The translations under genes and the position numbers were made by a program. Shown in pieces: positions 1 through 21,760 of a stretch of DNA of 64,000 nt. The notes beneath the pieces are model-generated. The model had not been told where the DNA came from and did not search any database. It saw only the letters and a program-made list of their open reading frames with translations. Source of the DNA: Lachnospiraceae bacterium (GTDB lineage Bacteria; Bacillota; Clostridia; Lachnospirales; Lachnospiraceae); contig JAFUVF010000042.1 of assembly GCA_017483735.1 (NCBI GenBank), forward strand, positions 1 through 64,000. The letters run 5' to 3'. The number at the start of each line of letters is the position of its first letter. Within the stretch, counting starts at the first letter, position 1.

Positions 1-1329
1 GACAGGACGTTAGGGCTATGGGCGGTGCTTATTTCCACGGCGGTCAATATTACGGGAGATATCCTGTGTGCCACGGTCCTTCACACGGGTTTATTCGGGC
101 TGGCACTGGTCACATCCATCAGTAATATTGTTATGTTTGCGGTGATCCTGTGCCATTACAGACCGGGAAGGATCAACCTGCTTCGGTTTGTACCCACCAA
201 TTTCAGGATCAGAGACGTGGGAACGCTTATTGCAAGGGGAATCCCCAATGCGATCCTGATCGCCTCGGGAATGGTACGCGGGATCGTTATGAATAAAACC
301 CTTTTGCATGTGTCGGATGATATTCATGTTGCGGCGGTCTCTGTCATGTCTTCGGTGAATATTTTGCAGGCAAGTCTGTTATCGGGCTTCTTTGCCGCAG
401 TTTCGATGATAAGCGGGGTTGTGGCAGGAGAGGATGATAAGAAAGGTCTTGCATCCGTCATGCGGAATTGTATGAAGGTTGGAGCAGGTCTTTCTGTGTT
501 CCTGGTATTGTTTGCAGTCGTATTCGCCGATATGTTACCGCGTATATTCATCCGTGACGAACAGGTAACCGCGATTACAGCGCTTGCGCTGAGGATCACG
601 GTTCTAAGCGTCCCCTTTCAGATATTGTCCGGCGTGATCTGCGGAATGTATCAGGGGCTTAAGTATACGAGGCTTTCCAGTATTGAATATATCATGAGGG
701 ATATCGTGATACCTTCCGTTTGTTTTATTGTTTTTGGACTGTCATTCGGGGCAGTCGGGATGTTTGCGGGAATGACAGTTGCCTATGCGATCTCACTTGC
801 GTTTATCATCCTGTATCCGCTTATCAGGATGAGAAAAACCTCCTTGCAGTTGCCATATAAGCTGATGCTGCTTAAGGACAGTGATATTATCTATACTTCT
901 TATGAAGGCTCGGCAGGTACGCTTGAGGAGGTATCGGCCTTATCGGAGGGTGCAAGACAATATTGCCTTCAAGAGAATTGTACGAAGCGGATGTCACTCA
1001 CAACATCGCTTGCGATAGAGGAAATGTGCAAGAACGCACTTGTCCATAATCTTGCGGAGGGCAGGAAGCACAGCATGGATGTTATTCTGAGAAGGAAGGA
1101 TGATAAGCAGTGGTTATTGCGGATACGCGACGATTACAGGCTGTTTGATCCGGCTGAGTGGCTCAAAGCGCATGAGGAGGAGACCCGCAAGGATCCGGCG
1201 CAGAACATTGGTATAAAAATGATATTCGATCTGGCAGAGGATGTGATGTATACGCAGCTTATGCAGATGAATAATCTGAGCATTACTTTTTCAGAAAAAC
1301 AGGAGGGAAAAGACATTGAAAGAAATTGA
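1..1329 (+). CDS. MATE-family efflux transporter fused to RsbW-like ATPase domain (5' end outside window)
   Basis: The frame is open at the first base, so the N-terminal part of the protein lies upstream. Roughly the first 290 visible residues are hydrophobic helices of MATE/polysaccharide-exporter type. The last ~130 residues are a GHKL ATPase of the RsbW/SpoIIAB (HATPase_c_2) kind: an N-box LAIEEMCKNALVHN, a G1-like LRIRDDYRLFDP and a G2-like NIGIKMIFDL. MATE proteins use an ion gradient to expel small molecules; RsbW-type ATPases bind or phosphorylate STAS proteins. A cytoplasmic C-terminal ATPase therefore suggests a switchable exporter, which is inference. Two more fusions of this type occur at 9079 and 54603. 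The next gene starts inside its 3' end, so the two are translationally coupled. Confidence 0.85.
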   Translation, partial: DRTLGLWAVLISTAVNITGDILCATVLHTGLFGLALVTSISNIVMFAVILCHYRPGRINLLRFVPTNFRIRDVGTLIARGIPNAILIASGMVRGIVMNKTLLHVSDDIHVAAVSVMSSVNILQASLLSGFFAAVSMISGVVAGEDDKKGLASVMRNCMKVGAGLSVFLVLFAVVFADMLPRIFIRDEQVTAITALALRITVLSVPFQILSGVICGMYQGLKYTRLSSIEYIMRDIVIPSVCFIVFGLSFGAVGMFAGMTVAYAISLAFIILYPLIRMRKTSLQLPYKLMLLKDSDIIYTSYEGSAGTLEEVSALSEGARQYCLQENCTKRMSLTTSLAIEEMCKNALVHNLAEGRKHSMDVILRRKDDKQWLLRIRDDYRLFDPAEWLKAHEEETRKDPAQNIGIKMIFDLAEDVMYTQLMQMNNLSITFSEKQEGKDIERN

Positions 1330-2206
1330 CATTTCGTCCTGCCCGGTTATCGGCAGAGGCGGAGCGGGAACGGTATACAGGCTGGATGAGGATAAAATCG
1401 TAAAGGTATATCATCCCGATATGAAGCTTGAGAGTGTACAAAGGGAGCGGGAGCTCGCGAGGGCAGCTATAGTAAGTGGAATACCATCCGTAATCCCCTA
1501 TGATACGGTTAGATGCGGCGAAAGCTACGGAATCGTGTTTGAGATGATCGCATCGGATACCCTGGGACACGCCTTCGCTGGTCACCCCGATAAAACGGAG
1601 GAATATGTAGACCGATATGTAGCTTTTGTCAAAGAGCTTCATTCTGTTCATCTGAAAACGGGCAGCTTCGAGGATTTAAAGACTGTGCTCCACAGAGCCG
1701 TTCCGAGATTGTCAGACTGCTTAGGAGAGGCTGAGCTTGAACTGCTTAACAGCCTGATTGACAGCATTCCGGATGGGGATTCCCTGATACACGGAGACCT
1801 TCATCCCGGGAATATCATGGTGCAGGATGATACCTTACTGCTGATCGACTTAGACAGTGCTTCAAGGGGAGCAAAGGTGTGGGAGCTTGCGGCGCTGTTT
1901 CGCAATCTTATTGTCGGACCAAAGAATATACCGCAGATCGTTGAAATGTCCATGGGTATTCCCGTTGAAATGGTTTCGGATATCGGGCACAGGTTCTTTA
2001 AACGCTATTTTGGAATTCAGAGTGAGGAAGAGCTGCAGGGAGTTTTTGGAAGGCTGCTTCCCATATACGCTTTTAATACGATCCTGAATGCCGCAGTATC
2101 CGGAGAAACCACTGGTTCTGTTTATGATCATATCCCGGAGATGGTGCAGGGGGCGATAATCCCGCATGAGCAGGCAATCCGGCAAGGGTTGCGCGAATTA
2201 TCATGA
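1316..2206 (+). CDS. APH/choline-kinase-fold phosphotransferase
   Basis: This is a 296-residue protein-kinase-like phosphotransferase. A glycine-rich loop GRGGAGTVY lies at residues 13-21, with Lys30 as probable ATP-binding lysine. The catalytic loop HGDLHPGN is at 159-166 (Asp161) and the metal-binding IDLD at 177-180. This is the aminoglycoside phosphotransferase/TIGR02172-like group, whose members phosphorylate small molecules or are uncharacterised. The start is TTG, chosen because AGGAGG sits 8 bases upstream. It overlaps the MATE fusion by 14 bases and so probably belongs to the same operon. The substrate cannot be told from sequence; a product of the surrounding cluster or an imported antibiotic are both possible. 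Confidence 0.8.
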   Translation: MKEIDISSCPVIGRGGAGTVYRLDEDKIVKVYHPDMKLESVQRERELARAAIVSGIPSVIPYDTVRCGESYGIVFEMIASDTLGHAFAGHPDKTEEYVDRYVAFVKELHSVHLKTGSFEDLKTVLHRAVPRLSDCLGEAELELLNSLIDSIPDGDSLIHGDLHPGNIMVQDDTLLLIDLDSASRGAKVWELAALFRNLIVGPKNIPQIVEMSMGIPVEMVSDIGHRFFKRYFGIQSEEELQGVFGRLLPIYAFNTILNAAVSGETTGSVYDHIPEMVQGAIIPHEQAIRQGLRELS

Positions 2207-2478: not shown

Positions 2479-4677
2479 ATGTATGCGGAAAATCAGATCA
2501 GGGTATCAAAAGCTTCAGAAATCACTGAGGCAGTGAAATTTGTTGAAAGCAGTTTTGCATCGTCACCGGATCATTCCAAGACACGGATACTGGCGCTTAT
2601 ATGTGAGGAACTGCTACAGCGTCTGTTGATCCTGGGATTTAAGGAGATCCGCATTTCTTTGAAGGGTCTTCTGTTTAAATATATAGTGATAAGCACAGCT
2701 GGGGAGCGAATGGATCCATGGGCGGCCGCTTTTTGGCAGCCCGGCCACTCTGAGACCGGTTCGGAGACAGAAACGGAAGGAGCAGGGGATCGGGACTGCG
2801 AGGACAGGGTGGGTGCCCAGATCAGTGCATGTCTGTTAGAGAGGTATGCGGACAATTTCAGCTTTCGATATCAGAATGGCATTAATATATACAAGGTGTT
2901 TAAGAGCGATGCTTCAATAGATCTGTCCGGTGAAATATACGGCTATTATAAAGATGCCGACCCTGACAAGCCGCATAAACCAACGGATGTTCTTTGGCAG
3001 GTCGTGCGTAATCACAGTGGCTTTTTGGCGCTGTCTATTTCGATACTGATCCTCAGGCATCTCGCTGCCCTTATGCTTCCCGTGTTTGTATCGAATATCA
3101 TAAATACAGTTACGGAATCGTCTTCTTTCTTTATCCGGCCGCTTATCGCAAACATTCTGCTGTCTGTCGTCGCCTTAACCGTAAATCTCGCCTGCTTTGC
3201 GCTGGACATCCACATGTACCGCCGGTTTGCTAGGGCTATGGAGACAGGCTTCAGAATGGCGCTGGTCCAGAAGTTGCAGGTCCTTTCCATTGATTATCAT
3301 ACAAGGTCACAGTCAGGCGTGGTGCTCTCCAAGGTGGCTTCCGATGTACAGTTTGTAGAAATGCTGATCTACGACCGGTTCACGGAGATTTTGTTTCTGT
3401 GCGAGGACGTGCTGTTCATCATCATAGTGGCTACTGTGAAATTCCCTCCGATGCTGGTATTTTATATCGTGATCATTCCCGCGATCATCTTTCTGCTGCG
3501 CCGCTTCTCGGGATCCCTTAAGGACAGCCGAGCCAATATGCGCAGGCAAAACGAGCAGGTGAGTTCCTCCATCAATGAGATGCTTTCGATGGAGAGCCTG
3601 ACCCGTGCCCATGGCCTTCAGAAGACAGAATACAGGAGTATCCTGAAGAAAGTCCGCAGTGCACAGCGGGCTTCCATGCTCTATGACCGGCAGACCGTAA
3701 GCGTCAACAACTTTTCCTATGGCGGCTTCCAAGGCTTGAGGCTTCTTTCCTTAAGCTTTACCGCATGGCTTACCGCGGCAGGCTATATCGATGTCGGTAC
3801 ATTGGTGCTGTTTCAGTCTATATTTGATCTGATAGTTAATAATGTGCAGCGAATGTCGGACGCGGTGCCCCTTATTACCCAGGGGTATGACAGTCTTGTG
3901 AGCATAAACGAGATCCTGTATGCGGCTGATATCGAGAAGAATGGTACCATGCTTTTGAAAAACCCGGTACGTGGGGAGATCGAGTTTAAGAATGTTTCGT
4001 TTGGCTATGAGAAAGATAAGGAGCCGGTCCTTAGAAACGTAAGCTTCAGGGTGCCCGCAGGCGGCAGTGCCGCCCTGATCGGAAAGTCAGGTGGAGGAAA
4101 AACTACGATTTTAAATCTTCTTCTTGGGTTGTATAATGTTGAAGGCGGGGAGATCCTCATCGACGGCATTAATCTATGTGAGCTTGAAAAAACCGCATAT
4201 CGCAGAAACATCGCTGTCGTACCACAGAATACGGTCCTGTTTTCCGGCACTTTGTGGGATAATCTGGTATATGGGCTGGATTTTGTCAGCCCTGAAAGGG
4301 TCGTGGATGTCATACGCCGGGTCGGCCTATTAGATCTGCTAGAAACGCTTCCGGACGGTCTTAACAGCCGGATCCGCGAAAATGGAGGCAATCTGTCCGG
4401 AGGACAGCGGCAGCGCATCTCCATAGCCCGGGCGCTTCTCAGAGATCCGAAGATCGTACTGCTTGACGAGGCCACCAGCGCCCTGGACAGTGCCAGCGAA
4501 AAGCAGGTACAGGAAGCCGTCGATGCGATGATGGGAAGCTGTACCGTGATCATGGTGGCTCATCGTCTGGGCACTCTGCGATGTGCGGATTCAATCTACA
4601 GGATCGATAACGGAACACTCAGCCGTTATGAAAACTATGAACTGGCTATACGGGATGTGGAGGCCGAAGCGACATGA
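2479..4677 (+). CDS. ABC exporter (permease-ATPase) with a diverged N-terminal regulatory region
   Basis: This is a 732-residue half-transporter. Residues ~175-465 form the six-helix export membrane domain; ~485-720 form the ATPase with Walker A GKSGGGKT (~535), signature LSGGQ (~639), Walker B IVLLDEATSALD and an H-loop VAHRLGT. Such proteins dimerise and export peptides, lipids or small molecules. The first ~150 residues are unusual. KTRILALICEELLQRLLILGF and a following RISLKGLLFKYIVIS strand recall the N-box region of the RsbW-like ATPases fused to the MATE genes here, but the Asn of the N-box and the glycine motifs are missing. It is possibly an inactive version that only binds a partner. 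It forms a tight operon with the HD gene (4-base overlap). Confidence 0.85.
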   Translation: MYAENQIRVSKASEITEAVKFVESSFASSPDHSKTRILALICEELLQRLLILGFKEIRISLKGLLFKYIVISTAGERMDPWAAAFWQPGHSETGSETETEGAGDRDCEDRVGAQISACLLERYADNFSFRYQNGINIYKVFKSDASIDLSGEIYGYYKDADPDKPHKPTDVLWQVVRNHSGFLALSISILILRHLAALMLPVFVSNIINTVTESSSFFIRPLIANILLSVVALTVNLACFALDIHMYRRFARAMETGFRMALVQKLQVLSIDYHTRSQSGVVLSKVASDVQFVEMLIYDRFTEILFLCEDVLFIIIVATVKFPPMLVFYIVIIPAIIFLLRRFSGSLKDSRANMRRQNEQVSSSINEMLSMESLTRAHGLQKTEYRSILKKVRSAQRASMLYDRQTVSVNNFSYGGFQGLRLLSLSFTAWLTAAGYIDVGTLVLFQSIFDLIVNNVQRMSDAVPLITQGYDSLVSINEILYAADIEKNGTMLLKNPVRGEIEFKNVSFGYEKDKEPVLRNVSFRVPAGGSAALIGKSGGGKTTILNLLLGLYNVEGGEILIDGINLCELEKTAYRRNIAVVPQNTVLFSGTLWDNLVYGLDFVSPERVVDVIRRVGLLDLLETLPDGLNSRIRENGGNLSGGQRQRISIARALLRDPKIVLLDEATSALDSASEKQVQEAVDAMMGSCTVIMVAHRLGTLRCADSIYRIDNGTLSRYENYELAIRDVEAEAT

Positions 4678-5474
4678 TCGACAGGAAAACTGCTGAAAAC
4701 GCATTTTACACATACACCTCACATTATGATCCGGACAACAGCATGATCCGGCATAAGATCGCGCATACCCTGCGGGTCGCGGACAACTGCGAGAGGATAT
4801 CGCAAAGCCTATGCCTGGAAACCGAGCTTGTTGATCTCGCATGGTTTATCGGGCTGCTCCATGATATAGGACGTTTCGAACAGGTACGCAGATATCAGAC
4901 TTTTATTGATTCCGTTTCAGTGGATCATGCCGAATTTGGGGCGGATCTTTTGTTTAAGGAAAACCTTATAAGAGAATTTCCCATTAAAGACCTGACGGCA
5001 GAATTATTAAGTATTTTGGAGACAGCCATAAGACTCCACAATAAACTGAATCTGCCGGAGGAGCTTGATGAACGGACAAGACTTATCTGCAATATCATAA
5101 GGGACGCTGACAAGGCGGATATCTTTCGGGTGATCGCGGAGCTTCCCTTTGAAGAACGTATCGGATCGAGCAGAAATCTGTTTACGGAGGCGGATGAGGC
5201 GAGCGATGAAGTGATGGAATGCGTGCGGGAGCACCGCTGCGTGCCGAGGGATATCCGAAAAACACGATTTGAAGGACATATCTCCCATTGCTGCATGGCC
5301 TTTGAGGTGGTGTTTGAAGAGAGCAGGCAGATCATCCGGGAACAGGGCTTCTTAGATCATCTGCTGCGTGAATATGATGATAGTGGAAAACCTCTGTGGA
5401 ATGAAATGGAACGGGCTCAGCTTGGGATTTTGAGGAAAGAAATTGAGGCAGCCTGGAAAGGAGATATCTTATGA
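4674..5474 (+). CDS. HD-domain phosphohydrolase
   Basis: This is a 266-residue soluble protein with the metal-binding histidines of an HD domain: His27 and His31 in RHKIAHTLRV, His63-Asp64 in LLHDIGRF, and a later Asp in IIRDADKADIF. HD proteins hydrolyse phosphate esters, often nucleotides. The ATG overlaps the stop of the ABC gene (ATGA) and its own stop overlaps the next start, so it is translated within the operon. Its substrate is unknown; breakdown of an activated intermediate or a nucleotide signal are possibilities. Confidence 0.8.
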   Translation: MIDRKTAENAFYTYTSHYDPDNSMIRHKIAHTLRVADNCERISQSLCLETELVDLAWFIGLLHDIGRFEQVRRYQTFIDSVSVDHAEFGADLLFKENLIREFPIKDLTAELLSILETAIRLHNKLNLPEELDERTRLICNIIRDADKADIFRVIAELPFEERIGSSRNLFTEADEASDEVMECVREHRCVPRDIRKTRFEGHISHCCMAFEVVFEESRQIIREQGFLDHLLREYDDSGKPLWNEMERAQLGILRKEIEAAWKGDIL

Positions 5475-6412
5475 TTCTGGCATTATATGGCGCGGGGGCG
5501 ATGGGCCGCGAATTTAAGCAGATCGCAGATGAAAGCAGAGAATGGTCCGGGATTGTATTCATTGACGATAATACCCAGGCAGAACGGCTGTCTGGCTGCC
5601 CGGTATACAGATTCCAGATATTTCGGGAGCGCTGCACACCGGATCAGGTGCGCTTTATCGTATCGATCGGGGAACCGAGATACCGGCTAGAAGCCTTTGA
5701 GCGGATGACCCGGGCCGGGTATACTCCTGGCGTGCTGATCCACAGCTCTGCACATGTCAGTCCGGATGTCGTGGTGGGAGAGGGAACGGTGATCTGTCAG
5801 GACGTCTTTATCGGTTCTCTTTCTAAGATCGGCAGGAACTGTTACCTGTCACGCAATGCATCTGTCGGGCATGATGCGGTTGTAGGCGACCATACGCGAT
5901 TGGGAGTCAATTCCTTTATCGGCGGGCATACCGTGATCGGAACCAACGCTTTTATCGGGGCGGGCGCCCTGTTAAAGGATCGCATAAATATCGGAGCATA
6001 CAGTATTGTGGCATTAGGCGCCGCGGTATTTGAGGATGTACCCGACAATGCCACAGTTATCGGGAATCCGGCCAGGCTTTCCGGAGAAAGCACCGGATCA
6101 GCTGTTTACGGTAATAACAGTTCGTTTAAGCCTCTGCAGGATAAAGAGGCAGGGGACGCTTCAGGCTTGAGCCTTCAGGAACGATACTGGGAGGTATTCG
6201 CAGGCTGCTTCGAAGGCGTGGACTTCAATCCGGTCACATTCAGATACCATGACGGCGGGTGGGATTCCGTGACGCATATGACGCTTATCAGTCAGCTGGA
6301 GGAGGCCTTTCATGTCTCGATCAGAGGGCGAGAGGTGATGAGGATCAGATCTTACGCCGATGGCCTTGAACTGATCCGGAAAAAATTGGAAACAGCTTCT
6401 GATACGGTATGA
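5471..6412 (+). CDS. NeuD/PglD-like acyltransferase fused to an acyl carrier domain
   Basis: Residues 1-80 form a small Rossmann-like PglD_N domain (ALYGAGAMGRE). Residues ~90-205 are hexapeptide repeats of a left-handed beta helix with a probable catalytic His134 (SVGHDAVVGD). NeuD/PglD enzymes transfer acetyl from acetyl-CoA to amino or hydroxyl groups of sugars. The C-terminal ~80 residues look like an acyl carrier protein: helix, then GGWDSVTHM with Ser266 where phosphopantetheine would attach, then SQLEEAF. The joining of a sugar acyltransferase to its own carrier is unusual and suggests it uses a tethered acyl group. A GGAG ribosome site (AAAGGAG) precedes the ATG. The next gene is an AMP-forming ligase that could load the carrier. 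Confidence 0.8.
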   Translation: MILALYGAGAMGREFKQIADESREWSGIVFIDDNTQAERLSGCPVYRFQIFRERCTPDQVRFIVSIGEPRYRLEAFERMTRAGYTPGVLIHSSAHVSPDVVVGEGTVICQDVFIGSLSKIGRNCYLSRNASVGHDAVVGDHTRLGVNSFIGGHTVIGTNAFIGAGALLKDRINIGAYSIVALGAAVFEDVPDNATVIGNPARLSGESTGSAVYGNNSSFKPLQDKEAGDASGLSLQERYWEVFAGCFEGVDFNPVTFRYHDGGWDSVTHMTLISQLEEAFHVSIRGREVMRIRSYADGLELIRKKLETASDTV

Positions 6413-6498: not shown

Positions 6499-7938
6499 AT
6501 GAAAAGGATATGGGATTTCGACGCTTTTGAAGATAAGATCGCTTTTACGGATGATACCGGTGTCAATGTAAGCTATGAGGAACTGGGGTCGCTCCAAAAC
6601 CAGCTGTTTAAGACAGAACCTTCAGGAAAACTGACCATGATGCTTTGTGAAAACAGCATTGGTGCACTTTCAGGATATACTGCGCTGTTAAACAGCGGCC
6701 ATCCGATGATGTTGGTGTCAGCGGCTATACCTGAGGAGGAGCGCCGCAGGATCATGAATACCTATCGTCCCGGACTTGTCTTTTCGCCTCTTACGCTTCG
6801 CAATGACTATCCTCATATGCAGGAGCTTAAGAGGATCGATGAATATGTGCTGCTTGAGACAAACTATTCCGATCTGTATCCGGTTAATCCAAAACTTGGA
6901 CAGATGCTGACAACCTCCGGTTCCACCGGTTCAGTGAAATTCGTCAGACAGTCGTGGGACAATATACGGGTAAATGCCGGGATTCATGTGGATATTCTGG
7001 ATATGACCGACAAAGACCGCACGATCACTGCGCTTCCTATGAACTATACCTACGGGCTTTCAATTATCTGCGCAAGCCTTATGGCCGGCGCCACCATGAT
7101 CGTGACCCGCATGGGGATCATGGACGAGGGCTTCTGGGATCTGTTTGAGAACGAGCATGTGACTTCCTTTCATGGTGTGCCCGGAACTTATGATATGTTG
7201 CGTAAGCTGGATATATTCTGCGAGGATCATCCTGACCTTAAGCTGCTGACCCAGGCCGGAGGAAAGCTTGACCGGGATCTTCACAGCTACCTTGCAAAGT
7301 ACGCTGAGGATTGCAAAAAGCGTTTCATTGTTATGTACGGGCAGTGTGAGGCTACGGCGGCTATAAGCTTTCTGCCTGCCGCTAATGCTCAGGATAAACC
7401 GGGATCTGTGGGCATTGCTGTTCCCGGCGGAGAGATAGGCCTGGTCGATGAAGATGGGAATCCTGTAAAAGAGGCGAATGTTTACGGTGAACTTGTGTAT
7501 CAGGGGGAAAATGTGGCCATGGGCTATGCCGTATGCGGAGAAGATCTGGCAAAGGGGGATGATTGGCATGGTAACCTTCATTCCGGCGACCTTGCCGAAA
7601 TAGATGCGGATGGCTTTCTGTATATAACCGGGAGGCTTAAACGCTTCATAAAGATGTCAGGGCACCGGGTAAGCCTCGACGAGATAGATGAAAGGATCCT
7701 GAATGAAATGAATATTCGCTGCGTCAGTTCGGGCACAGACGACCATCTGGTCATTTTTGTCCTGAGCGATGACGATAAAAGTGCCGTACAGGATTATATA
7801 AGACGGAGGATCAGTGTTGTCCGGCCCTCATTTAAGGTTGTAAAGATCGATGCCTTTCCAACCAATGAAGCCGGGAAGATCCTGTATGGCGCCCTTCGCG
7901 AGATAGCAGAGCATTATCACGGCTATCAGCCGTTTTAG
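6499..7938 (+). CDS. AMP-forming acyl/amino-acid ligase
   Basis: This is a 479-residue stand-alone member of the ANL (adenylate-forming) superfamily. Motifs are TTSGSTGSVK (138-147) for ATP, MYGQCEA for the adenine site, LHSGDLAEID for the ribose-binding Asp, GRLKRFIKMSGHRVSLDEI for the hinge, and NEAGKILYGAL with the late catalytic lysine. It activates a carboxylic acid as acyl-AMP and passes it to a thiol. No carrier domain is attached, so the ACP-like domain at the end of the previous protein is an obvious recipient (inference from context). AAAGGAGG precedes the ATG. The preferred acid is not known. Confidence 0.88.
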   Translation: MKRIWDFDAFEDKIAFTDDTGVNVSYEELGSLQNQLFKTEPSGKLTMMLCENSIGALSGYTALLNSGHPMMLVSAAIPEEERRRIMNTYRPGLVFSPLTLRNDYPHMQELKRIDEYVLLETNYSDLYPVNPKLGQMLTTSGSTGSVKFVRQSWDNIRVNAGIHVDILDMTDKDRTITALPMNYTYGLSIICASLMAGATMIVTRMGIMDEGFWDLFENEHVTSFHGVPGTYDMLRKLDIFCEDHPDLKLLTQAGGKLDRDLHSYLAKYAEDCKKRFIVMYGQCEATAAISFLPAANAQDKPGSVGIAVPGGEIGLVDEDGNPVKEANVYGELVYQGENVAMGYAVCGEDLAKGDDWHGNLHSGDLAEIDADGFLYITGRLKRFIKMSGHRVSLDEIDERILNEMNIRCVSSGTDDHLVIFVLSDDDKSAVQDYIRRRISVVRPSFKVVKIDAFPTNEAGKILYGALREIAEHYHGYQPF

Positions 7939-8224: not shown

Positions 8225-9082
8225 ATGAATATTGCATACGCCTGTAATCGATATTTTCTGCACCATGCCATGGTAAGCATATATTCATTATTGACAAATG
8301 GCCGAGGAGAGCGGTCTGTCAGGATACTACTCATGGCAGATCCTGATCTTTGCAGAAATGATCTGGCTCCGATATTCCACATGGTTTCCTGTTTTTCAGG
8401 ATGTACGATCTCAGCTGTATGGCCGCAGGAGGGAACAGCTCGGCGCTTTGCTTCGGATGGATCGTGCTGCCTTAGTAAGGAATTGGTTCAGGTTGCCTGT
8501 TATAGACTGTTTATCCCGGATATTCTTATAGAGGAAGAACGCTGTCTGTACCTGGACTGCGATACGGTGATATGTCATCCTCTGACAGAATTATATGATA
8601 CGGAGATGGGGAATACATCTATAGCGGGAGTGACCGACCGGCTGTGTCTTAAAGAGGATCAGATAAGGTGGATGGAGACAGAGAGCGGTATAGCTCCTGG
8701 CTGCTATATAAATTCGGGAGTTATGCTGATGGATCTGGACAGGATGAGGACTTCAGGAAATGCGAAAAGGGCTTTGGAGCTTGCTTATCATAAACCATTC
8801 CCATATATGGATCAGGATGTGCTGAATAGGATCTATCAAAGCGAGATCATGCTCCTTCCTAAACAGTATAATGTATTTCCGGATGACGATCCGCAGGATA
8901 TGAAGACACTCAGGATGCTCCTGCCGGAATCTGCAGAGCTGTTTTCAGATGAAGCATTAACTGCCCCTGCCATTGTCCACTATATAGGCAAAAACAAACC
9001 ATGGATACGAAATGATGTGCACCTGGCACAGTATTGGCGTGAGGCGGAGACCGCCTGTAAGGATTTAAGGGGAAACTTATGA
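8225..9082 (+). CDS. Family 8 glycosyltransferase
   Basis: A 285-residue GT-A fold enzyme. It starts NIAYACNRYFLHHAMVSIYS, typical for GT8, and carries the metal-binding D-C-D at residues 111-113 (LYLDCDTVI), an NSGVMLMDL stretch that shapes the acceptor site, and a late HYIGKNKPW. GT8 retaining enzymes use UDP-glucose or UDP-galactose and act in lipopolysaccharide, glycan or small-molecule glycosylation. GGGAAGG precedes the ATG and the stop overlaps the next MATE start (ATGA), so it may glycosylate the exported compound. The donor and acceptor are not determinable here. Confidence 0.85.
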   Translation: MNIAYACNRYFLHHAMVSIYSLLTNGRGERSVRILLMADPDLCRNDLAPIFHMVSCFSGCTISAVWPQEGTARRFASDGSCCLSKELVQVACYRLFIPDILIEEERCLYLDCDTVICHPLTELYDTEMGNTSIAGVTDRLCLKEDQIRWMETESGIAPGCYINSGVMLMDLDRMRTSGNAKRALELAYHKPFPYMDQDVLNRIYQSEIMLLPKQYNVFPDDDPQDMKTLRMLLPESAELFSDEALTAPAIVHYIGKNKPWIRNDVHLAQYWREAETACKDLRGNL

Positions 9083-10854
9083 ACAAACGTTCCGGAAAGG
9101 GTCTGATACGTGGGGCATTCCTGCGCCTCATGTTTAACAACATATTTATCTTCGTTGCAACCTGCGCCTGTGGCGTCATCGATAATCTTTTCGTAGGGAG
9201 GATACTGGGGCAGGACGCGCTGGCTGCCGTAGGGTTCTTCTCTCCGGTCATGACGGCGGCGGGGCTTTCGTATGTGCTGATCATGGGAGTGCAGGTCCTT
9301 TCCGGGAATTATGTCGGAGAGGGCAAGACCGAACTGGTCAATAAATTGTTTGTCAGCGTCTTTTTCGTACTGCTTGCGGTATTTACCCTGTTCTCAATGA
9401 TATGCATCTTATTTCAGGCACCGCTTGCGGATATCCTTGGAGCCAGGGGTGATGTCGCAGTCCTCTTATGCGATTACATAAAGGGCTATGCTCCGGGCAT
9501 CATTCCCCAGACGCTTGCCGCACTGCTTATGGCGCTGTGTTCCTATAATAATGATCTGAAGCGCTCATATTGTGGTATTGCAGCCATGATCCTCGGAAAT
9601 GTAGCGGGGGATATGTTTTTGGTCGGACCGCTTGGACTTCTTGGCATCGGGATCGCTTCAAGTATCAGCAGCACCGCATCTTTTATGGTTTTGCTGCCCG
9701 GGTTCCTGAAGAAGAATAAGCTTTTTTATTTTGACATATCCCGTGGATCTGATCCCGGACTTGCTGTAAATGCGGCGATCCGAGGTCTTCCAAGCCTGAC
9801 TTTTACAATAGGTGTCATCTTTAAGAATTACTGCTTCAATTATGCGATGAATGGGTACGCAGGAGCCCCTGGCGTAGCTGTTACCGGGATCATGTCAACA
9901 GCATGCGCATTCTTTGGGGCTGTTCCGACTGGCTGTGCAAATGCCTTTTCCGCACTGGCCGGGCTCTATTACGGTGAACAGGACAGGGAGAGTTATCTGG
10001 ACCTGGCAAGAACGGCATTAAAGACCGGCGTTGCCGCCACGACACTATGCACACTTATCGTGATGCTGTTGTCCGGATCCCTGACGGTCTTATTTCTTCC
10101 CGGGGATGCGGCTCTCCATCCCCTTTGCAGGCGTATGTTCCTGCTTGCATTCTCGTTTCTTTTACCCAATGTGATCTATAACATTTTCCTTCAATCCTAC
10201 AGTGCCCAGGGGAAAATGACGTTTATCAACATCATGTCCTTTGCAGAAGTTGCAAGCGTCGGCTTATTTGCCCTGCTCGCGATGAGGTGGCTGGGAACAG
10301 ATGCTGCATGGATCGCCAATGCAGTGATCGATGTCCTTTGTATCTTCGTCCTGATGATCTCCGCCATTGCCGGTAAAAAGACAGTCCGGGTAACGCTTGC
10401 GGCAATGCTTAAGCTCGATGATGAGTTTGGAGCCGATAAAGAGGATGTGATAGAACGATCGATCACTACATTGGATGATGTTGTCAGGGCATCCAGTGAT
10501 GTCGCTGAGTTTTGCAGGGAGAAGAAATATCCCTCGCGTACAGCGTATTATGTAGCTTTAAGCATTGAGGAGATCGCTTCAAACATCTTAAAGTATGGCT
10601 TTCAAAATACGGAAGGGGGTTCTCGAAATGACCGGAGTGCGTATTATACGGATGTCCGCGTGGTTTCAGGGAAAGATTCCCTTACTGTGCGTTTCCGTGA
10701 TAACTGCCGGGAGTTTGACCCGAGAGAGCGGATCAAGCTGTACGTCCCGGAAACGAAAGAATCCCACATAGGGATCCGCATGGTCGCAAAAATCGCAAAA
10801 CAGATCGACTACTATAATAATGCCGGTATAAATACTACGATCGCTACATTTTGA
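9079..10854 (+). CDS. MATE-family transporter fused to RsbW-like ATPase domain
   Basis: This is the complete version (591 residues) of the fusion seen at the start of the window. Residues ~1-440 carry twelve membrane helices of the MATE type with the internal two-fold repeat. Residues ~455-591 form the HATPase_c_2 domain: IEEIASNILKYGF (N-box), FRDNCREFDPRERI (G1-like) and HIGIRMVAKI (G2-like). G1 lacks the usual DxG glycine (DNC), so catalysis may be weak. It overlaps the GT8 gene by 4 bases and is convergent with the NRPS gene, overlapping its end by 11 bases. Export of the cluster product under ATPase-domain control is the working hypothesis. Confidence 0.87.
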   Translation: MNKRSGKGLIRGAFLRLMFNNIFIFVATCACGVIDNLFVGRILGQDALAAVGFFSPVMTAAGLSYVLIMGVQVLSGNYVGEGKTELVNKLFVSVFFVLLAVFTLFSMICILFQAPLADILGARGDVAVLLCDYIKGYAPGIIPQTLAALLMALCSYNNDLKRSYCGIAAMILGNVAGDMFLVGPLGLLGIGIASSISSTASFMVLLPGFLKKNKLFYFDISRGSDPGLAVNAAIRGLPSLTFTIGVIFKNYCFNYAMNGYAGAPGVAVTGIMSTACAFFGAVPTGCANAFSALAGLYYGEQDRESYLDLARTALKTGVAATTLCTLIVMLLSGSLTVLFLPGDAALHPLCRRMFLLAFSFLLPNVIYNIFLQSYSAQGKMTFINIMSFAEVASVGLFALLAMRWLGTDAAWIANAVIDVLCIFVLMISAIAGKKTVRVTLAAMLKLDDEFGADKEDVIERSITTLDDVVRASSDVAEFCREKKYPSRTAYYVALSIEEIASNILKYGFQNTEGGSRNDRSAYYTDVRVVSGKDSLTVRFRDNCREFDPRERIKLYVPETKESHIGIRMVAKIAKQIDYYNNAGINTTIATF

Positions 10855-13800
10855 TCTGCCTGCCGAGAACCATTGCTTCCAGGTTTTCAAAGATCTCCCG
10901 GTGTAATCCTTCCACCTGTGACGCACGGATGCCTTTCTTCTGGCAGCTCAGCTTACAATCAAGCGCACCGTCTTTTTCATCGCTGTCAGAGATGACAGCG
11001 AGAACCACATTATCCGCAGTTTCGGGATATGCATTGTGGAGATCGACATACCTGGGCTCAAAGATGCCTATCCTGGAATCGTTCATATGAACCTGTATGT
11101 TGGATTCAACCCACACTCTTCCGCGGGAGAAGACATCTTCCACCAGATAACTGTACATTGAGTGTGCTATGCCGGAAAGGACCTGCTCCTTGACAGAGAT
11201 CAGCAGCTCGCTGACGGACCCTATAGCATCCATGTGACAACCCACGGGAAGCGTTTTGATGAACATGCCGACTGCGTTCTCTGCTTCCTTCGTCTGACGG
11301 TTATGGAAGGTCCAGAAGGTCAGGATATCCTTTCTTCCAGTATCATGATACATCGCCAGAATGATAGAGGCGATATGCATAACCGAGAGGGAGACGGAAA
11401 GGCGGTCAGCCGCATATCTAAGCTGAAGCTTGCTAAAGCACAGGCGGTGGCTGAACTCGCCGCCTTTTTCATCGCAGGAGGGGCTTTCTTCAAACGGCAT
11501 GACGCACCAGTCATATCTGCCGTATCGGCCTAGCAGATACGCTCTGTCTGCTTCATACTGCCCGGACAACATACGCTTTTCTTCCATGGATAAAAGCGCA
11601 GGGAAGCGGTCGCGTTTCAATCCGACTCCGTGATAGGCATCTACGATGCTCCCTAAGAAAGGACGGAGAGAGAGCCCGTCCGCCAGCAGGTGATGCACAT
11701 CCATGAAGAAGTACAGGTCATTCTTTCCGCGATAGAGCTCCACCCGGCACAGGCTGTGATCCGGCAGAACGTCAAAAGGCCTGATCAGCGTATCCGCAAG
11801 GGCGGCCTCCGTTTCGGGCGTAATATCGAGGACCTCCACATTTGGGATCAGCACCGGATCATATCGTTGGCTTAAGTTGAAGCCGTCATCAAGGGAAAAA
11901 CACATGGCAAATGCGGGATGATGGGCAAGCGCCTTGTTCAGAGCCTCGCAGAAGCGTTCCGGATCCACCGCATTCTTTAGACGCATCAGGAAACGAATGG
12001 AACTGACCGTTGCGCCATGGGGAACCATCTGCTGAACAGCATACAGCTCTCTCTGAACAGGTGTAACCATGTGCGGGCTCAGTAACGCATCCTTTTCAAG
12101 CTGCTCAAAATCCATGACCTGCTGTGCGGCATCCCTCCGCGCCAATTCACTTAATATTTCTGCAGGAGTACGGAAGGTAAAAATGTCTGAATAGGTCAAA
12201 CCCTTAATATCCGCTTCGGACAACAGCTCCATGGCGGACAGGGAATCGCCGGAAAGGTCAAAAAAATCATCCATAAGCCCTACGCTGTGTTCAGGCCGGT
12301 TCAGCACCTTTTCAAATGCCGCACAAAGCTTCACTTCCTGCCCGGATCCGGGCGGGATATAGCCGGCTCCCAGATCATCATCAGAAGGCTCGGGGAGTCT
12401 GCTCCGGTCAAGCTTTCCGTTCGTAGAAACGGGCATTTTTTCAATCCTCATGAGCACATTCGGAACCATGTAATACGGGAGCTTTTCCCTGATGAAGCGT
12501 TTCAGCAGCGACCTGTCGATCACTCCCTCAGAAGTGTAATAACCTGCCAGATACTCGGAGTGAGCCCCCTTTTTCAGCGCGACAGCGGCGCTTTGGATCC
12601 CAGGATATTCTGCCGTCACCGCCTCGATCTCATTCGGCTCGATACGAAACCCATGCAGCTTGATCTGGCTGTCGATCCTGCCGTGGAGCACAATTTCTCC
12701 GGTATCTGTCCATGAGGCAAGATCGCCGGTGTGATACGCGGGGCTGCCTTGATAGGTAAAGAAAGGGCCATCTGGAGCATTTTGGCGGATGTAACCGCGC
12801 GCGACCTGGCTTCCGGAGATGATCAGCTCCCCTTTTTGCCCGACAGGAAGCGTGTTGCCGGATCGGTCCAGGACGTGGTATTGTACGTTGGCTCTCGGAC
12901 TGCCTACTGTGATGACCTCATCGTCGGTAATGACAGATGACGAGCTGATTATGCAGCATTCAGTCGGACCGTAGACATTCATGATAACGCTGTCCTTCCT
13001 CAGCTTGCGTAAGCGGGCATAAAGCTGTTTCGGAAAAGCCTCAGCGCCTATATGGAACAGTCTGAACTGTTTCAGCGCCTCCCTGCTTTCACGAGCAGAA
13101 AGAAGCCCGCAAAGATAGGAAGGAGTGCATGCGATGGCATCGGTGCCTGTCGTAAGCACTATCTCCGCGAACCTGACCGGATCGTGGATCTGCTCGTTCG
13201 TCGCAATGACGACCGTGTTACCATTGCAGAGGGGCACCAATTCTTCCTCAAGCGAAAAATCAAAAGAAAATGGGGCTATGGCAAGGGAAATCCTGCCGGG
13301 ACTGGCAAACTGCATCACATCAATGCTTTTTTCGTTTCGGTGGACGTAATTGGCGATGCTTCTATGCTCGATCAACACCCCTTTTGGCCTTCCTGTTGTC
13401 CCTGAGGTATAGATGCAATATGCCAAATGCGTTTTGGGAACCCGCGGGAGAGAAATCTGCCTGTTCGGCTGATCGCTGTAGATCAGAATATCTTCCACGG
13501 CTAACACCTCATATTCCGTCGGCCTAAGGAACCTTGCTTCCCGGAGCTTTTTTGTGGTAAGCAGCAGCCTGCTTCCGGAATCACTCATGCAATAGTCGAT
13601 GCGTGCGTCGGGATATTCCGGAATAAAGGGCAGAAAGGCGGCACCAGCCTTCAGTACGGCAATCTCTGCCGCATAAGCCATGGCTTCTCTTTCAAATAGG
13701 ACGGAGATAAGCTCATTCATTCCCGATGTTTTTTGGATAAGCACCAGGGCGATCCTGTCAGACAGGGCATCCAATTCACTATAGGTTATAAGCCTGTCGC

Positions 13801-13930
13801 AACTGATCACTGCTGTCTTGTCCGGATGGAGTTGCGCCTGCCTGTGAATCTGCTCATGAACCGGCACGAACGGAAACGGGACCTCAGTTTTATTGAAAGA
13901 CAGAAGCTTTTCAGTATTGGATCGATCCAT
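10844..13930 (-). CDS. Nonribosomal peptide synthetase, A-T-C
   Basis: 1028 residues. Adenylation domain ~20-505: TSGTTGRPKG (~175), FDFS (~223), VYGPTE (~319), YHTGDL (~399), NGKLDR (~504). Carrier domain ~530-600 with Ser563 in DLSGDSL. Condensation domain ~610-1028 with an intact HHLLADG (746-752). There is no thioesterase or reductase, so the last C domain probably releases the product or joins it to an amine carried elsewhere. Hand alignment to GrsA gives a tentative pocket D-F-E-A-F-I-V-I-I-K; Asp235 suggests an alpha-amino acid, the exact residue is unknown. GGAGG lies 6 bases before the ATG. It is transcribed against the rest of the island and needs a phosphopantetheinyl transferase not present in this window. 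Confidence 0.93.
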   Translation of the reverse strand: MDRSNTEKLLSFNKTEVPFPFVPVHEQIHRQAQLHPDKTAVISCDRLITYSELDALSDRIALVLIQKTSGMNELISVLFEREAMAYAAEIAVLKAGAAFLPFIPEYPDARIDYCMSDSGSRLLLTTKKLREARFLRPTEYEVLAVEDILIYSDQPNRQISLPRVPKTHLAYCIYTSGTTGRPKGVLIEHRSIANYVHRNEKSIDVMQFASPGRISLAIAPFSFDFSLEEELVPLCNGNTVVIATNEQIHDPVRFAEIVLTTGTDAIACTPSYLCGLLSARESREALKQFRLFHIGAEAFPKQLYARLRKLRKDSVIMNVYGPTECCIISSSSVITDDEVITVGSPRANVQYHVLDRSGNTLPVGQKGELIISGSQVARGYIRQNAPDGPFFTYQGSPAYHTGDLASWTDTGEIVLHGRIDSQIKLHGFRIEPNEIEAVTAEYPGIQSAAVALKKGAHSEYLAGYYTSEGVIDRSLLKRFIREKLPYYMVPNVLMRIEKMPVSTNGKLDRSRLPEPSDDDLGAGYIPPGSGQEVKLCAAFEKVLNRPEHSVGLMDDFFDLSGDSLSAMELLSEADIKGLTYSDIFTFRTPAEILSELARRDAAQQVMDFEQLEKDALLSPHMVTPVQRELYAVQQMVPHGATVSSIRFLMRLKNAVDPERFCEALNKALAHHPAFAMCFSLDDGFNLSQRYDPVLIPNVEVLDITPETEAALADTLIRPFDVLPDHSLCRVELYRGKNDLYFFMDVHHLLADGLSLRPFLGSIVDAYHGVGLKRDRFPALLSMEEKRMLSGQYEADRAYLLGRYGRYDWCVMPFEESPSCDEKGGEFSHRLCFSKLQLRYAADRLSVSLSVMHIASIILAMYHDTGRKDILTFWTFHNRQTKEAENAVGMFIKTLPVGCHMDAIGSVSELLISVKEQVLSGIAHSMYSYLVEDVFSRGRVWVESNIQVHMNDSRIGIFEPRYVDLHNAYPETADNVVLAVISDSDEKDGALDCKLSCQKKGIRASQVEGLHREIFENLEAMVLGRQIKM

Positions 13931-14413: not shown

Positions 14414-14432
14414 ATAAAGGGAGGAAAAGATT

Positions 14433-17015
14433 ATGTCAGAAAAGCAGTACAAGGTATCGGTTGCGTCTCCGTTTCATAACACTAATCTTGATTTTTTCAG
14501 AAAGTGTATGGATTCGCTTCGTGCTCAGAGCATTGGCTTTAAGAATATCCAATGGGTGATCACGGTTCACAACTCAGAGAAGGAGTATGTGGACGCCGTT
14601 AAGGAGATAGCAGAACAGCATTCCAACATCGAAGTATATGAGCTATACAATGATTACAGGACTGCCTCCAGCCCCAGGAACGAGTGTCTTAAGCACATCC
14701 GCAGCAAGTATGTGTTTTTCCTTGATTCCGATGATTTTCTTTTCCCGGAAGCCCTTGAAAAGCTATATACGGCAATGGAGGAGAATGATGCTGAGGTCGG
14801 CTCCTGCCGTGAGGAATCTATCGAAGGTACAGAAGGGCTCCGATATGTGGATCAGCTCCGACTCAGGTTCCTGTTAGATCAGACGAAACCTCTGATCGTT
14901 CTTCACAGGAATGATCCTGAGATGGCAAATTATCTGGATCCACGTAATCTGACCGTACACAAGATGTATCGGATGAGCCTTCTTAGCGAAAACAATATCA
15001 GCTTCCATGATGAAACGGTCATGGGCGAGGATGTTGTCTTCAATCTCAACTGCGCTAAATACTACAAAACCGTTGTCGTTCTTCCGCAGTACATAGGATA
15101 CGGTTATTTCCTGAATGCGGGTTCCCTGGCGCAGAGCTCTCTGGCGATGAATCCGGAGAAGCTGGGAAGCTATATGAACGACCGGCTGGACTGGATCAGC
15201 ATGGGTGTACAGACCGGTCTGGATGTGTCGAATGTCGCCTGGTCAGGTCTTGCCAGTGTGGCGAAGATTCTGAGTGCTCCGGGACTTCCGGATGAATTCC
15301 GTAAGATGTGGAAGGATAAGTTCATTCCCTATATGGATATGCTTAAACCCTTAAGGCCCAACAAGTTCTATGACGAGCAGAGGACACAGCAGATCATGGG
15401 CTTTGCCCGCATGATCTTTGCAAAAGAGGACAACGGTTCACAGGTGGGAAAAAACTCCGATCTGCTTTGGTCGATCCTTCAGAAGAATGCCGGTACCGAC
15501 ATCGGACGTAACCGGAATTTTGAGACGATCCGTACCTATGAAGCGTACAAGAGCAATGTTCCGCTGACGGAATATGATTTTTACGCACCCCTTATCGAAC
15601 TGACAACCCGCATCGGCGAAACCGACATTTTCTGTGGAGAGCCCCTGATCGGATACTCTCTGAGTTCGGGAACAACTTCGGCTCAGAAACGTATTCCATA
15701 TACGGCGGATCATCTGGTGGCTTATGCCGCCTGTATGAGTGACATCCTGAATGACGGGGAAGCCACCTTTGCCCTGTTAGAGAGCCTGCCGAAGGAAATG
15801 GAATATGTTGATAATACAAGGCTTGACTCCATTATCGGCGCAGCCTTAAGCGTCATACGCATGGAGCTGTCCGAGTGTTCTTATGCCAAGCGCTTCAAGC
15901 AGGGTGTGCTTACAAGCCCCATCGAGCTGTTCTTCCCAAGCGAGACCATAGACCCCCGCTACGCAAGGCTCCTGTTCGCACTTTTGGATCCAGACGTTTC
16001 TCAGATTGTAGCTCCATTCACCTGGACGGTGCTTGATACGCTGCAGTTCCTTGAGAAAAATCATGAACAACTGCTTAAAGACATTGAAAACGGAACCATC
16101 AGTACCGATTCCGGTATTCCCGATACCCTGCGGGAACAGCTTAAATCCAAGCTGATTGCGTCTCCTGAGAGGGCTAAGGAGCTGAGGACGGAATTTGAAA
16201 AGGGCTTTGAGGGTATCATTCCCCGTATCTGGAAAAAATGCAGACGGATTGTTGCCGCAGGTACCGGCGCGTTTGCCATCTACACGCGTAAGCTACGGTT
16301 CTACAGCGGTGAGGTTATCATGAACAATGGCTTCTATGCTGCTTCGGAGGCAGTTATCGGACGCTGTCTGGGTGATGGCTCTGATGAATATGCCCTGATC
16401 ACTGACAATGCCTTCTTTGAGTTCCTGCGCCCCGGAGATCAGGAACCGGTGGATGCAGGGAATATTAAAGAAGGTTCGGAGTATGAGATCATCCTTACCA
16501 ACCTGGCGGGACTGTATCGCTACCGGCTGGGAGATGTGATCCGTGTTCTCCGCAGGGAAAACGGAGTTTTGATCTTTACCTTTGAATACCGTCTGGATAA
16601 CTGCCTGAAAGCGGGCGATGTCACGATCACGGAAAAGATGCTTGAAAAAGCCGTTGAGACATTTGAAACTCAGACGAGGTCGGATATCCGGGATTTCTGC
16701 GCCATGATCGATGAGGATGGAGGCCTGACGGTTTTCGTGGAGCCTTTTGGTGCAGGGCAGCAGCTCCCGGCCTCTGCCAGGAGAGGAGAGCTTATGGAGG
16801 AAGCCCTGTTTGAGCTCTGCTCAGGATACCGTGCTGCGAGGGAACGGGGTGAGATCCCCATGACTAAGGTCAGGCTTCTGGAGCCAGAAACACACCTTCT
16901 GTTTCGTGACCGAAGAATGTTCCTTGAGAAGACTGCGCCGGATCAGATCAAGCCCATTCGCGTACTGGACACGCAGAGAAACAAGGATTTCTTTATGGCT
17001 CTTTCGGAGGAATGA
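14433..17015 (+). CDS. GT2 glycosyltransferase fused to GH3-family acyl-amide synthetase
   Basis: 860 residues with two enzymes. Residues ~5-230 are a family 2 GT-A glycosyltransferase: VSVASPFHNTN start, ASSPRNECL, metal-binding DSDD at 98-101 and a later MGEDVVFN. Residues ~345-860 match the GH3 (plant auxin-responsive) acyl-adenylate family: GYSLSSGTTSAQKRIPYT at ~407-424 binds ATP, and LYRYRLGDVIRVL near 690 is the second hallmark. GH3 enzymes adenylate an acid and couple it to an amino acid through an amide bond. The fusion implies glycosylation and amidation of the same scaffold. GGGAGG precedes the ATG. It is expressed from an attenuated leader and is the last gene of the island. Confidence 0.85.
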   Translation: MSEKQYKVSVASPFHNTNLDFFRKCMDSLRAQSIGFKNIQWVITVHNSEKEYVDAVKEIAEQHSNIEVYELYNDYRTASSPRNECLKHIRSKYVFFLDSDDFLFPEALEKLYTAMEENDAEVGSCREESIEGTEGLRYVDQLRLRFLLDQTKPLIVLHRNDPEMANYLDPRNLTVHKMYRMSLLSENNISFHDETVMGEDVVFNLNCAKYYKTVVVLPQYIGYGYFLNAGSLAQSSLAMNPEKLGSYMNDRLDWISMGVQTGLDVSNVAWSGLASVAKILSAPGLPDEFRKMWKDKFIPYMDMLKPLRPNKFYDEQRTQQIMGFARMIFAKEDNGSQVGKNSDLLWSILQKNAGTDIGRNRNFETIRTYEAYKSNVPLTEYDFYAPLIELTTRIGETDIFCGEPLIGYSLSSGTTSAQKRIPYTADHLVAYAACMSDILNDGEATFALLESLPKEMEYVDNTRLDSIIGAALSVIRMELSECSYAKRFKQGVLTSPIELFFPSETIDPRYARLLFALLDPDVSQIVAPFTWTVLDTLQFLEKNHEQLLKDIENGTISTDSGIPDTLREQLKSKLIASPERAKELRTEFEKGFEGIIPRIWKKCRRIVAAGTGAFAIYTRKLRFYSGEVIMNNGFYAASEAVIGRCLGDGSDEYALITDNAFFEFLRPGDQEPVDAGNIKEGSEYEIILTNLAGLYRYRLGDVIRVLRRENGVLIFTFEYRLDNCLKAGDVTITEKMLEKAVETFETQTRSDIRDFCAMIDEDGGLTVFVEPFGAGQQLPASARRGELMEEALFELCSGYRAARERGEIPMTKVRLLEPETHLLFRDRRMFLEKTAPDQIKPIRVLDTQRNKDFFMALSEE

Positions 17016-20095: not shown

Positions 20096-21760
20096 ATGAA
20101 AGCGGACAAGATTATCAAAAACGCAAAAATCTTCACAGCGGATAAGGACAAACCCGAGGCTTCCGCCCTTGTAGTGAAGGACGGCAAGTTCGTCTATGTG
20201 GGCGACGAGGCAGGGATTTCTGCGTATGAGGGAGAGGTCACTGATCTGGGTGGTAAATTCATCATGCCCGGCATTATCGACAGCCATGTCCATATCACCA
20301 CCAGCGTCGGATTCGAGTATCTGGATCTGGGGGTTCCGGTAATGACCTCCAACAAAAAGGATGCCATGGACTTTATTGCGGCTTATGTCAGGGATAACCC
20401 GGGTCTTGCGCGCTACAGATTTATGTTGGAGCGGGCTTCACTGCATGGAGAAAACATTACAAAGGATGAACTCGATGCGATCTGTCCGGACAGCGAGCTC
20501 ATCGTTTTGGAAGGAGAAGTACACAGCAACTGGGTAAACTCCAAGATCCTTGAGCGGCACGGCGTTACCGATGATACACCTGATCCTGTTCCAGGACTCG
20601 CTTATTACGTGCGAAAGGACGGGCATCTGACCGGAAATTCCTATGAGACCGCAAGCTGGCCTTTCCTCTTTGATGGTGTGAATGATCTGACTGACGAGCA
20701 GATCAGTGCGGCAGTACTGCGCTGGCTTGACAGCTCAATAAAATATGGTGTGGGCGCTGTCTTTGATGCCGGTTTTCCGGAGCATAATGGAGTGAACGAA
20801 CGGATATATAAAATTCTGCGCGATCTGGACAAGCAGGGAAAGCTGCCGGTCTACGTTGACGGGTGCTATGTACTCACGCAGCCTGCAAAATTAAAGGAGG
20901 CTCTGGAGGGTGTGAAGCGCTTTCGGAGCGAATTCAACACGGAGCACATGAAGGTACATACACTTAAGATTTTTATGGACGGCACCTTAAAGATTGAGAC
21001 TGCGGCGATGGTAACGCCCTATGAGGATGGAGTGCTGGGAGCCTCAGCCTTTAATGCCAAAGAGGTTGCCGAGATATTAAAGGAGCTCAATAAGGAGGGC
21101 TTGGATTTTCATGTCCATACCGTTGGCGAGGCATCGTCCCGAGTGGTACTGGACGGTGTGGAGCTGGCGAGAAAGGAATTGGGCGCAGACTTCCGTGTGA
21201 AGGTTACCTGTGCTCATCTGTGGGTTCAGGATGATGCGGACATTTCCCGTTTTAAGGAGCTCGGAGTATTTGCCAATTTCTCGCCCTGGTGGCACAGCGG
21301 CAACATAGGCGGCAATCCTATCGAACTTTGGACTTCTTTGATAGGTGAAAAACGTGCGCACGCCATGTATCGCTGCAAGACTATGTGGGATACCGGCGCC
21401 ATCGTGACATGGTCAAGCGATGAGGTCTTTTTCGGTGATTTTAAAAACTGGAGTCCCTACCTTGCCATGGAGGTGGGAATGACACGCTGGATCAATGAAA
21501 AGACAAGAATGGAAGAAGATGCCAGAACCATTGCAGCATTTCCTCCGGAGAGCGAGAGAATGAGTATTGAGGAAATGATACTCGGATATACGATCAACCC
21601 GGCGAAGCAGCTTGGTATTGAGGATAGAAAGGGTTCAATCGAGGCTGGCAAGGATGCGGATTTCCTCGTGTTTGACAACGACCTGTTGACGGCGGAGCAC
21701 GAGGGCTTCAGCTACAACAAGCCGGCGGATGTTTATTTTGCCGGAAAGAAAGTAAATTAA
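20096..21760 (+). CDS. YtcJ-like metal-dependent amidohydrolase, copy 1
   Basis: A 554-residue member of the amidohydrolase superfamily with the two-part layout of a small beta-sandwich and a TIM barrel. The metal site starts with DSHVH (residues ~61-65), continues with HVHTVGE near 340 and ends with a late Asp in WSSDEVFFGDF. YtcJ-type proteins hydrolyse amides or N-formyl groups of unknown compounds. GGGAG precedes the ATG. It has a close paralogue at 23422, with a carboxylesterase between them, forming a likely operon for degradation of a dietary or host compound. The true substrate is unknown. Confidence 0.85.
   Translation: MKADKIIKNAKIFTADKDKPEASALVVKDGKFVYVGDEAGISAYEGEVTDLGGKFIMPGIIDSHVHITTSVGFEYLDLGVPVMTSNKKDAMDFIAAYVRDNPGLARYRFMLERASLHGENITKDELDAICPDSELIVLEGEVHSNWVNSKILERHGVTDDTPDPVPGLAYYVRKDGHLTGNSYETASWPFLFDGVNDLTDEQISAAVLRWLDSSIKYGVGAVFDAGFPEHNGVNERIYKILRDLDKQGKLPVYVDGCYVLTQPAKLKEALEGVKRFRSEFNTEHMKVHTLKIFMDGTLKIETAAMVTPYEDGVLGASAFNAKEVAEILKELNKEGLDFHVHTVGEASSRVVLDGVELARKELGADFRVKVTCAHLWVQDDADISRFKELGVFANFSPWWHSGNIGGNPIELWTSLIGEKRAHAMYRCKTMWDTGAIVTWSSDEVFFGDFKNWSPYLAMEVGMTRWINEKTRMEEDARTIAAFPPESERMSIEEMILGYTINPAKQLGIEDRKGSIEAGKDADFLVFDNDLLTAEHEGFSYNKPADVYFAGKKVN

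Follow-up and report, generated by a model that had tools for sequence, protein, structure and literature searches.

The bacterial GH3 enzyme OlsH, a lyso-ornithine lipid synthetase, joins a fatty acid to ornithine at the expense of ATP and forms N-acyl-ornithine with neither ACP nor CoA (PMC12493201). The serine of its motif I is essential, and that of motif II is dispensable (PMC12493201). Another route to amides is known from gut Bacillota, in which the small free-standing NRPS-like proteins OaaA, OaaACP and OaaC perform acid activation and amide formation in a fatty-acid-amide pathway, and the fatty acid amides produced by gut bacteria act on host receptors (PMC13142362).

The window studied here, that is, the whole stretch of 64,000 nucleotides analysed from a Lachnospiraceae bacterium (contig JAFUVF010000042.1 of assembly GCA_017483735.1), carries a gene in which a GH3 domain is fused to a glycosyltransferase. 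The original prediction, in which a GT2 domain with DSDD is followed by a full GH3 domain at 14433-17015, was exact in its coordinates, and Pfam, the motifs, the AlphaFold2 model and Foldseek agree with it. The ORF is complete, with an ATG start and GGAGG ahead of the start codon, and the GH3 domain, spanning aa 342-858, is complete as well. The gene and its protein have the following features:

14433..17015, + strand: GT2-GH3 fusion gene, 860 aa (ORF, Pfam, AlphaFold2)
14420..14424, + strand: Shine-Dalgarno-like GGAGG, 8 nt upstream of the ATG (sequence)
14433..15422, + strand: GT2 half of GT-A fold, aa 1-330, RmlT/TarP/TarS-like (Pfam, Foldseek, phmmer)
14724..14735, + strand: DSDD, aa 98-101, within FLDSDD (aa 96-101), the nucleotide-sugar/metal motif (alignment of relatives)
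15027..15032, + strand: E199-D200, D200 being the presumed catalytic base (alignment with RmlT)
15423..15458, + strand: low-confidence (flexible) linker, aa 331-342 (AlphaFold2 model)
15456..16973, + strand: GH3 half, with the GH3 N-terminal domain at aa 342-628, GH3_M at 653-720 and GH3_C at 736-847 (Pfam)
15663..15677, + strand: GH3 motif I (ATP loop) SSGTT, aa 411-415 (motif alignment)
16335..16349, + strand: GH3 motif II YAASE, aa 635-639 (motif alignment)
16509..16535, + strand: GH3 motif III GLYRYRLGD, aa 693-701 (motif alignment)
16950..16952, + strand: K840 in DQIKP, aligned to the conserved C-terminal Lys (NQYK) of plant GH3 (profile alignment)

All Pfam matches (Glycos_transf_2 at aa 9-139, E 8.5e-18; the GH3 N-terminal domain, E 4.9e-55; GH3_M, E 1e-14; GH3_C, E 3e-7) are above cut-off, and Pfam revealed no carrier protein or condensation domain inside the protein. 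The AlphaFold2 model of the full protein, built from a 34-row alignment, has a mean pLDDT of 88.6 and a pTM of 0.83, with values below 50 confined to the linker and one short loop. Structure comparison assigned a fold to each half: the glycosyltransferase half has the fold of RmlT, TarP and TarS (Foldseek E about 1e-17; phmmer 3.5e-20), and the GH3 half matches plant GH3 structures (Foldseek, 6avh, TM 0.80-0.81 by target length). D200 is aligned with D198 of RmlT, the residue mutated in PDB 8bz8. The three GH3 nucleotide-binding motifs (SSGTxxxxK, xxSSE and YRxxD) occur as SSGTTSAQK, YAASE and YRYRLGD, K840 corresponds to the C-terminal lysine (NQxKxxR), and these motifs are those given for plant GH3s in the OlsH paper (PMC12493201). 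A profile of intact bacterial GH3s was aligned with the plant enzymes over nearly the full length, which placed the QxKP lysine on the NQYK lysine. As judged by these alignments, the window protein retains every catalytic signature in both halves.

We think it on balance probable, from these sequence features, that both halves are active and serve one pathway, the protein being a bifunctional glycosyltransferase and carrier-independent amide synthetase. The N-terminal, inverting GT-A half would transfer a sugar from a nucleotide-sugar to an acceptor, and the C-terminal GH3 half would convert a carboxylic acid and ATP into an acyl-AMP and pass the acyl group directly to an amine, so that the amide would arise with neither CoA nor a carrier protein. 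The likeliest product would be a glycosylated acyl-amide, namely an exported small lipo- or peptido-conjugate or a decorated envelope glycan. That both reactions take place and share a target molecule, which substrates they use and which of them comes first are all inferred. Should the activities be borne out, a single enzyme would produce glycosylated acyl-amides independently of the NRPS carrier machinery in common bacteria of the ruminant gut.

Relatives of the glycosyltransferase half were found at 80 named loci (GT-only alignment, about 85,000 species genomes), a count representing a lower bound, one nine-residue pattern having been used. The domain order was expected to recur in other genomes, and homologues proved far from always split: single GT2-GH3 ORFs, some clipped by contig ends, make up 71 of these 80 loci, and the sole true split pair is G587, in which the halves are adjacent genes with a 6-nt gap. 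Two further loci considered as split pairs were rejected, since a single in-frame stop separates the halves of L092 and a frameshift those of L165. The fusion occurs in Lachnospiraceae, Ruminococcus-type Clostridia, Selenomonadaceae, Prevotellaceae, Synergistaceae and Coriobacteria, i.e., in the phyla Bacillota, Bacteroidota, Synergistota and Actinomycetota, and nearly all genomes bearing it come from rumen or other gut samples; isolate genomes with the fusion include Butyrivibrio YAB3001, Oribacterium C9 and Prevotella tf2-5. Some copies are placed across phyla (e.g., one from Synergistaceae is nested in the Selenomonad clade), which points to horizontal transfer or to wrongly binned contigs.

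Within the taxonomic family of the window, this glycosyltransferase subfamily is rare: of 397 genomes sampled, 7 have a match better than 1e-87. More fusions were recovered from samples of the order and the family. About 400 sampled genomes of the phylum yielded no member at E<1e-40 outside the window’s own genome, a single-sequence search of genome contigs with the whole protein gave no match, no full-length match was found in plasmid records, and no full-length fusion was among the best matches in a viral structure library.

In the GH3 tree, the domains fused or linked to this glycosyltransferase group as a single clade with 100/100 support, separate from 24 free-standing GH3s from the same order. 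The main grouping of that tree, window,(G638b,(G246,G698)), is found again in the GT tree. By both trees, the GT2-GH3 proteins are one family, inherited mostly vertically within the family. The window, L098 and L089 form a fully supported group that is intact at all four GH3 sites. In this clade, both halves have dN/dS values of 0.07-0.14 in comparisons with unsaturated dS, the ratios being rough because dS is high; on these rates, both halves are under purifying selection. The window and L089 are 73% identical in the GH3 half and 59% in the GT half, and it can be argued from this difference, together with the low dN/dS, that GH3 catalysis matters in the window lineage. By its GT half the window protein groups beside L098, and by its GH3 half it stands nearer to L089, the C-terminus being almost identical; this conflict possibly reflects recombination between domains.

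Outside the window clade, most GH3 halves are degenerate. All four sites are retained by about 15 of the GT2-linked GH3s (window, L098, L089, G638b, L093, L103, L110, L119, L125, L131, L136, L145, L159, L160 and, apart from its in-frame stop, L092) and have been lost by about 60 of 76. The ATP loop is gone from the decayed copies, usually together with motif III and the lysine, and about 25 of them, including all Prevotella and Coriobacterial copies, are also devoid of the GH3 C-terminal domain. All of the free-standing GH3s (24/24) still have the lysine as well as the remaining motifs, with minor differences. The state changed between intact and degenerate at least six times on well-supported branches of the GT tree, and these changes are probably losses, because the regain of four sites is unlikely. 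As far as its residues indicate, the GH3 domain of most relatives cannot form acyl-AMP by the known mechanism; in these proteins it more probably serves for binding or as a scaffold, or else as an acyltransferase supplied in another way. The fold may outlast the sites: the model of a Prevotella copy with a decayed GH3 has a pLDDT of 90.2, and its best matches are plant GH3s. One doubt raised with the original prediction, that the GH3 half might lack ATP- and acyl-binding residues, is thus dispelled for the window and its clade and justified for most other relatives.

The glycosyltransferase half is far better preserved, D98, D100, D101 and E199 being invariant in 86 of 86 sequences and D200 being present in 80 of 86, the window included. 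In five Selenomonad fusions (L136, L139, L145, L149 and L160), D200 is replaced by G, and their GH3 motifs are intact or nearly so. Since these relatives lose the GT base instead, the two activities are separable, and since most relatives stay fused after the loss of GH3 catalysis, being fused is not in itself a sign of amide synthesis. Within the family, the GH3s on a conserved glycosyltransferase form a natural series, some intact and some decayed, in which the route from GH3 enzyme to pseudoenzyme and the residual role of the decayed domain are directly testable.

The fusion gene of the window is preceded by the following genes, those of the MATE-HATPase, A-PCP-C, A, APH and ABC types all lying within 14 kb upstream:

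10844..13930, - strand: A-PCP-C mini-NRPS, 1028 aa, its C domain with HHLLADG; the divergent neighbour (Pfam)
9079..10854, + strand: MATE exporter fused to HATPase_c_2, 591 aa, of a type recurring near GT2-GH3 genes (Pfam, clustering)
6499..7938, + strand: free-standing AMP-binding enzyme (Pfam)
5471..6412, + strand: hexapeptide acyltransferase of PglD type, its C-terminus weakly matching a carrier protein (DSVTHM) (Pfam)
2479..4677, + strand: ABC exporter (Pfam, neighbour clustering)
1316..2206, + strand: APH-like kinase (TIGR02172-like), of a type recurring near GT2-GH3 genes (Pfam, NCBIfam, clustering)

Neighbours were clustered over 92 loci, with counts slightly high because some contigs are present twice. 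Condensation-like proteins of 435 aa lie near 28 of these loci, APH-like kinases with or without STAS near 24, MATE proteins, often with HATPase_c_2, near 23, A-PCP(-C) proteins near 23, ABC exporters near 22 and carboxylesterases near 11; OafA-like acyltransferases also recur. In the surroundings of 20 ordinary GT2 genes from the same family, the condensation-like, APH, MATE and ABC types were each found at 0/20 and A-PCP at 1/20, a comparison which is supportive only, as the neighbour profiles were built from GT2-GH3 loci and are biased in their favour. The condensation-like proteins match NRPS C domains with a probability of 70% (E 4e-5) and are probably their distant relatives. They neighbour 0 of 14 loci with intact GH3 vs 22 of 54 with degenerate GH3 (Fisher p 0.003); corrected for the tree, five independent pairs remain, 2-3 of them informative and all in the same direction (p >=0.25). 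The loss of GH3 catalysis where condensation-like proteins are present is therefore suggestive only.

L098, the closest relative, has no NRPS, MATE, APH or ABC neighbours of the recurrent types, so the window neighbours may not be partners, and the adjacent NRPS lies on the strand opposite to the fusion. L093 and L103 adjoin envelope-glycan genes (polysaccharide pyruvyl transferase and PGA_cap). Several other arrangements were observed. MATE-HATPase_c_2 fusions (the window gene and L124:6877-8631) are often clustered with STAS or STAS-APH proteins, and the attachment of a MATE protein to the anti-sigma-type kinase domain HATPase_c_2 possibly represents partner-switching control of the exporter. 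An AMP-binding enzyme (L106:12630-14618) has a weak C-terminal HATPase_c_2 match. Downstream in the window, at 20096-25083, a carboxylesterase is flanked by two Amidohydro_3 enzymes, all on the + strand.

The glycosyltransferase is also found with partners other than GH3. In Butyrivibrio MC2013 (L033/L102; L033:5191-7500), a condensation domain replaces GH3 on this GT2 type, and another contig of the window’s genome (G000:C3, L169:7808-11872) encodes a 1354-aa A-PCP-C-GT2 protein. Since its partners comprise GH3, a condensation domain and A-PCP-C, amide-forming modules are recurrent companions of this GT family. The claim that the enzyme lies outside NRPS logic stands in one respect, because the GH3 half should need no carrier protein, and fails in another, because relatives of the GT half are repeatedly beside or fused to NRPS A-PCP-C or condensation domains. 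Next to the 1354-aa protein are an A-PCP-C protein of 1539 aa and a second GT2, and all four GT2s of the extended subfamily in the window’s genome are beside or within NRPS genes. A more distant GT2 of this type (L164:7034-9259) is fused to a GT-B (EryCIII-like) domain.

Several other explanations should be weighed against a bifunctional enzyme. Misassembly, or two genes read through as one, has nothing found in its favour and a practically negligible chance: many independent assemblies, those of isolates included, carry the identical arrangement, and we regard chance and misassembly as excluded because the fused frame is open at 71/80 loci and dN/dS in the window clade is low. It is unlikely that the halves are both active on unrelated molecules and that fusion provides co-expression or co-localisation only. 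The flexible linker of the model, the G587 split pair and the degeneration of either half in different relatives, which marks them as separable, would suit such an arrangement, but the fusion is kept in 71/80 relatives and four phyla, and the repeated choice of amide formers (GH3, C, A-PCP-C) as GT partners suggests a shared pathway.

The other alternatives concern the activity of one half. A hand-over of the GH3 acyl-AMP to a carrier protein or CoA in place of a free amine (e.g., to the PglD-PCP protein or the neighbouring A-PCP-C NRPS) seems improbable, since characterised GH3s, i.e., those of plants and OlsH, form amides directly, and intact relatives besides the window are without C-like or A-PCP neighbours; the NRPS-like neighbours of the window and many relatives, and the position of GH3 within the adenylate-forming fold, speak for it. 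There is a small chance that the GH3 half has no catalytic activity and serves the glycosyltransferase as a binding module, which seems to be its role in most relatives. The missing sites of about 60/76 GT2-linked GH3s, the absence of the C-terminal domain from about 25 and the survival of the fold in the Prevotella model fit this role; however, the window and its two nearest relatives are intact at the four catalytic sites, and GH3 is conserved better than GT between the window and L089. An inactive or docking GT half, which would leave essentially a GH3 enzyme, has in its favour the five Selenomonad fusions with G at D200 and is very improbable given the acidic residues kept by the window and nearly all sequences. 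A bifunctional enzyme with carrier-independent amide synthesis remains our preferred reading. A broader proposal is doubtful, though worth stating: GT2-GH3 may found a large, undescribed bifunctional glycosyltransferase/amide synthetase family of herbivore-gut bacteria, exchangeable with NRPS modules, the adenylating half of which would have become, several times over, a scaffold or acyl-handling domain that does not use ATP, as amide formation passed to condensation-type enzymes.

Both domains belong to known families; what is new is their recurrent arrangement with repeated pseudoenzyme decay. The literature searched, which covered few subscription journals, held no description of the GT2-GH3 fusion, its spread or its repeated decay, and no NCBIfam model covers the fusion. 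The notion of GH3 as a plant speciality has to be abandoned, since GH3s are common in bacteria, as seen from the 24 free-standing ones analysed here, a second one in the window’s genome and OlsH (PMC12493201).

Among the described systems, plant GH3 acyl acid amido synthetases (JAR1/GH3.11, GH3.12, GH3.15 and OsGH3-8) share with the window protein the fold, the ATP loop, xSE, YRxGD and the C-terminal Lys, but have about 25% identity to its GH3 half and are without a glycosyltransferase. OlsH also has no GT domain, unlike the window fusion, which scores 42.8 bits against the OlsH NCBIfam equivalog, below the cut-off of 620, and the Pfam scan detected no OlsI hydrolase or OlsG methyltransferase genes among the close neighbours of the window gene. 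The wall-teichoic-acid glycosyltransferases RmlT, TarP and TarS have the GT-A fold, the LDxDD motif and the base position in common with the window GT half at about 22% identity, whereas their own C-terminal domain is absent from the window protein, in which aa 342-858 are GH3. Finally, genes analogous to OaaA/OaaACP/OaaC adjoin many GT2-GH3s, but the Oaa pathway uses an ACP and a condensation enzyme, and GH3 would need neither.
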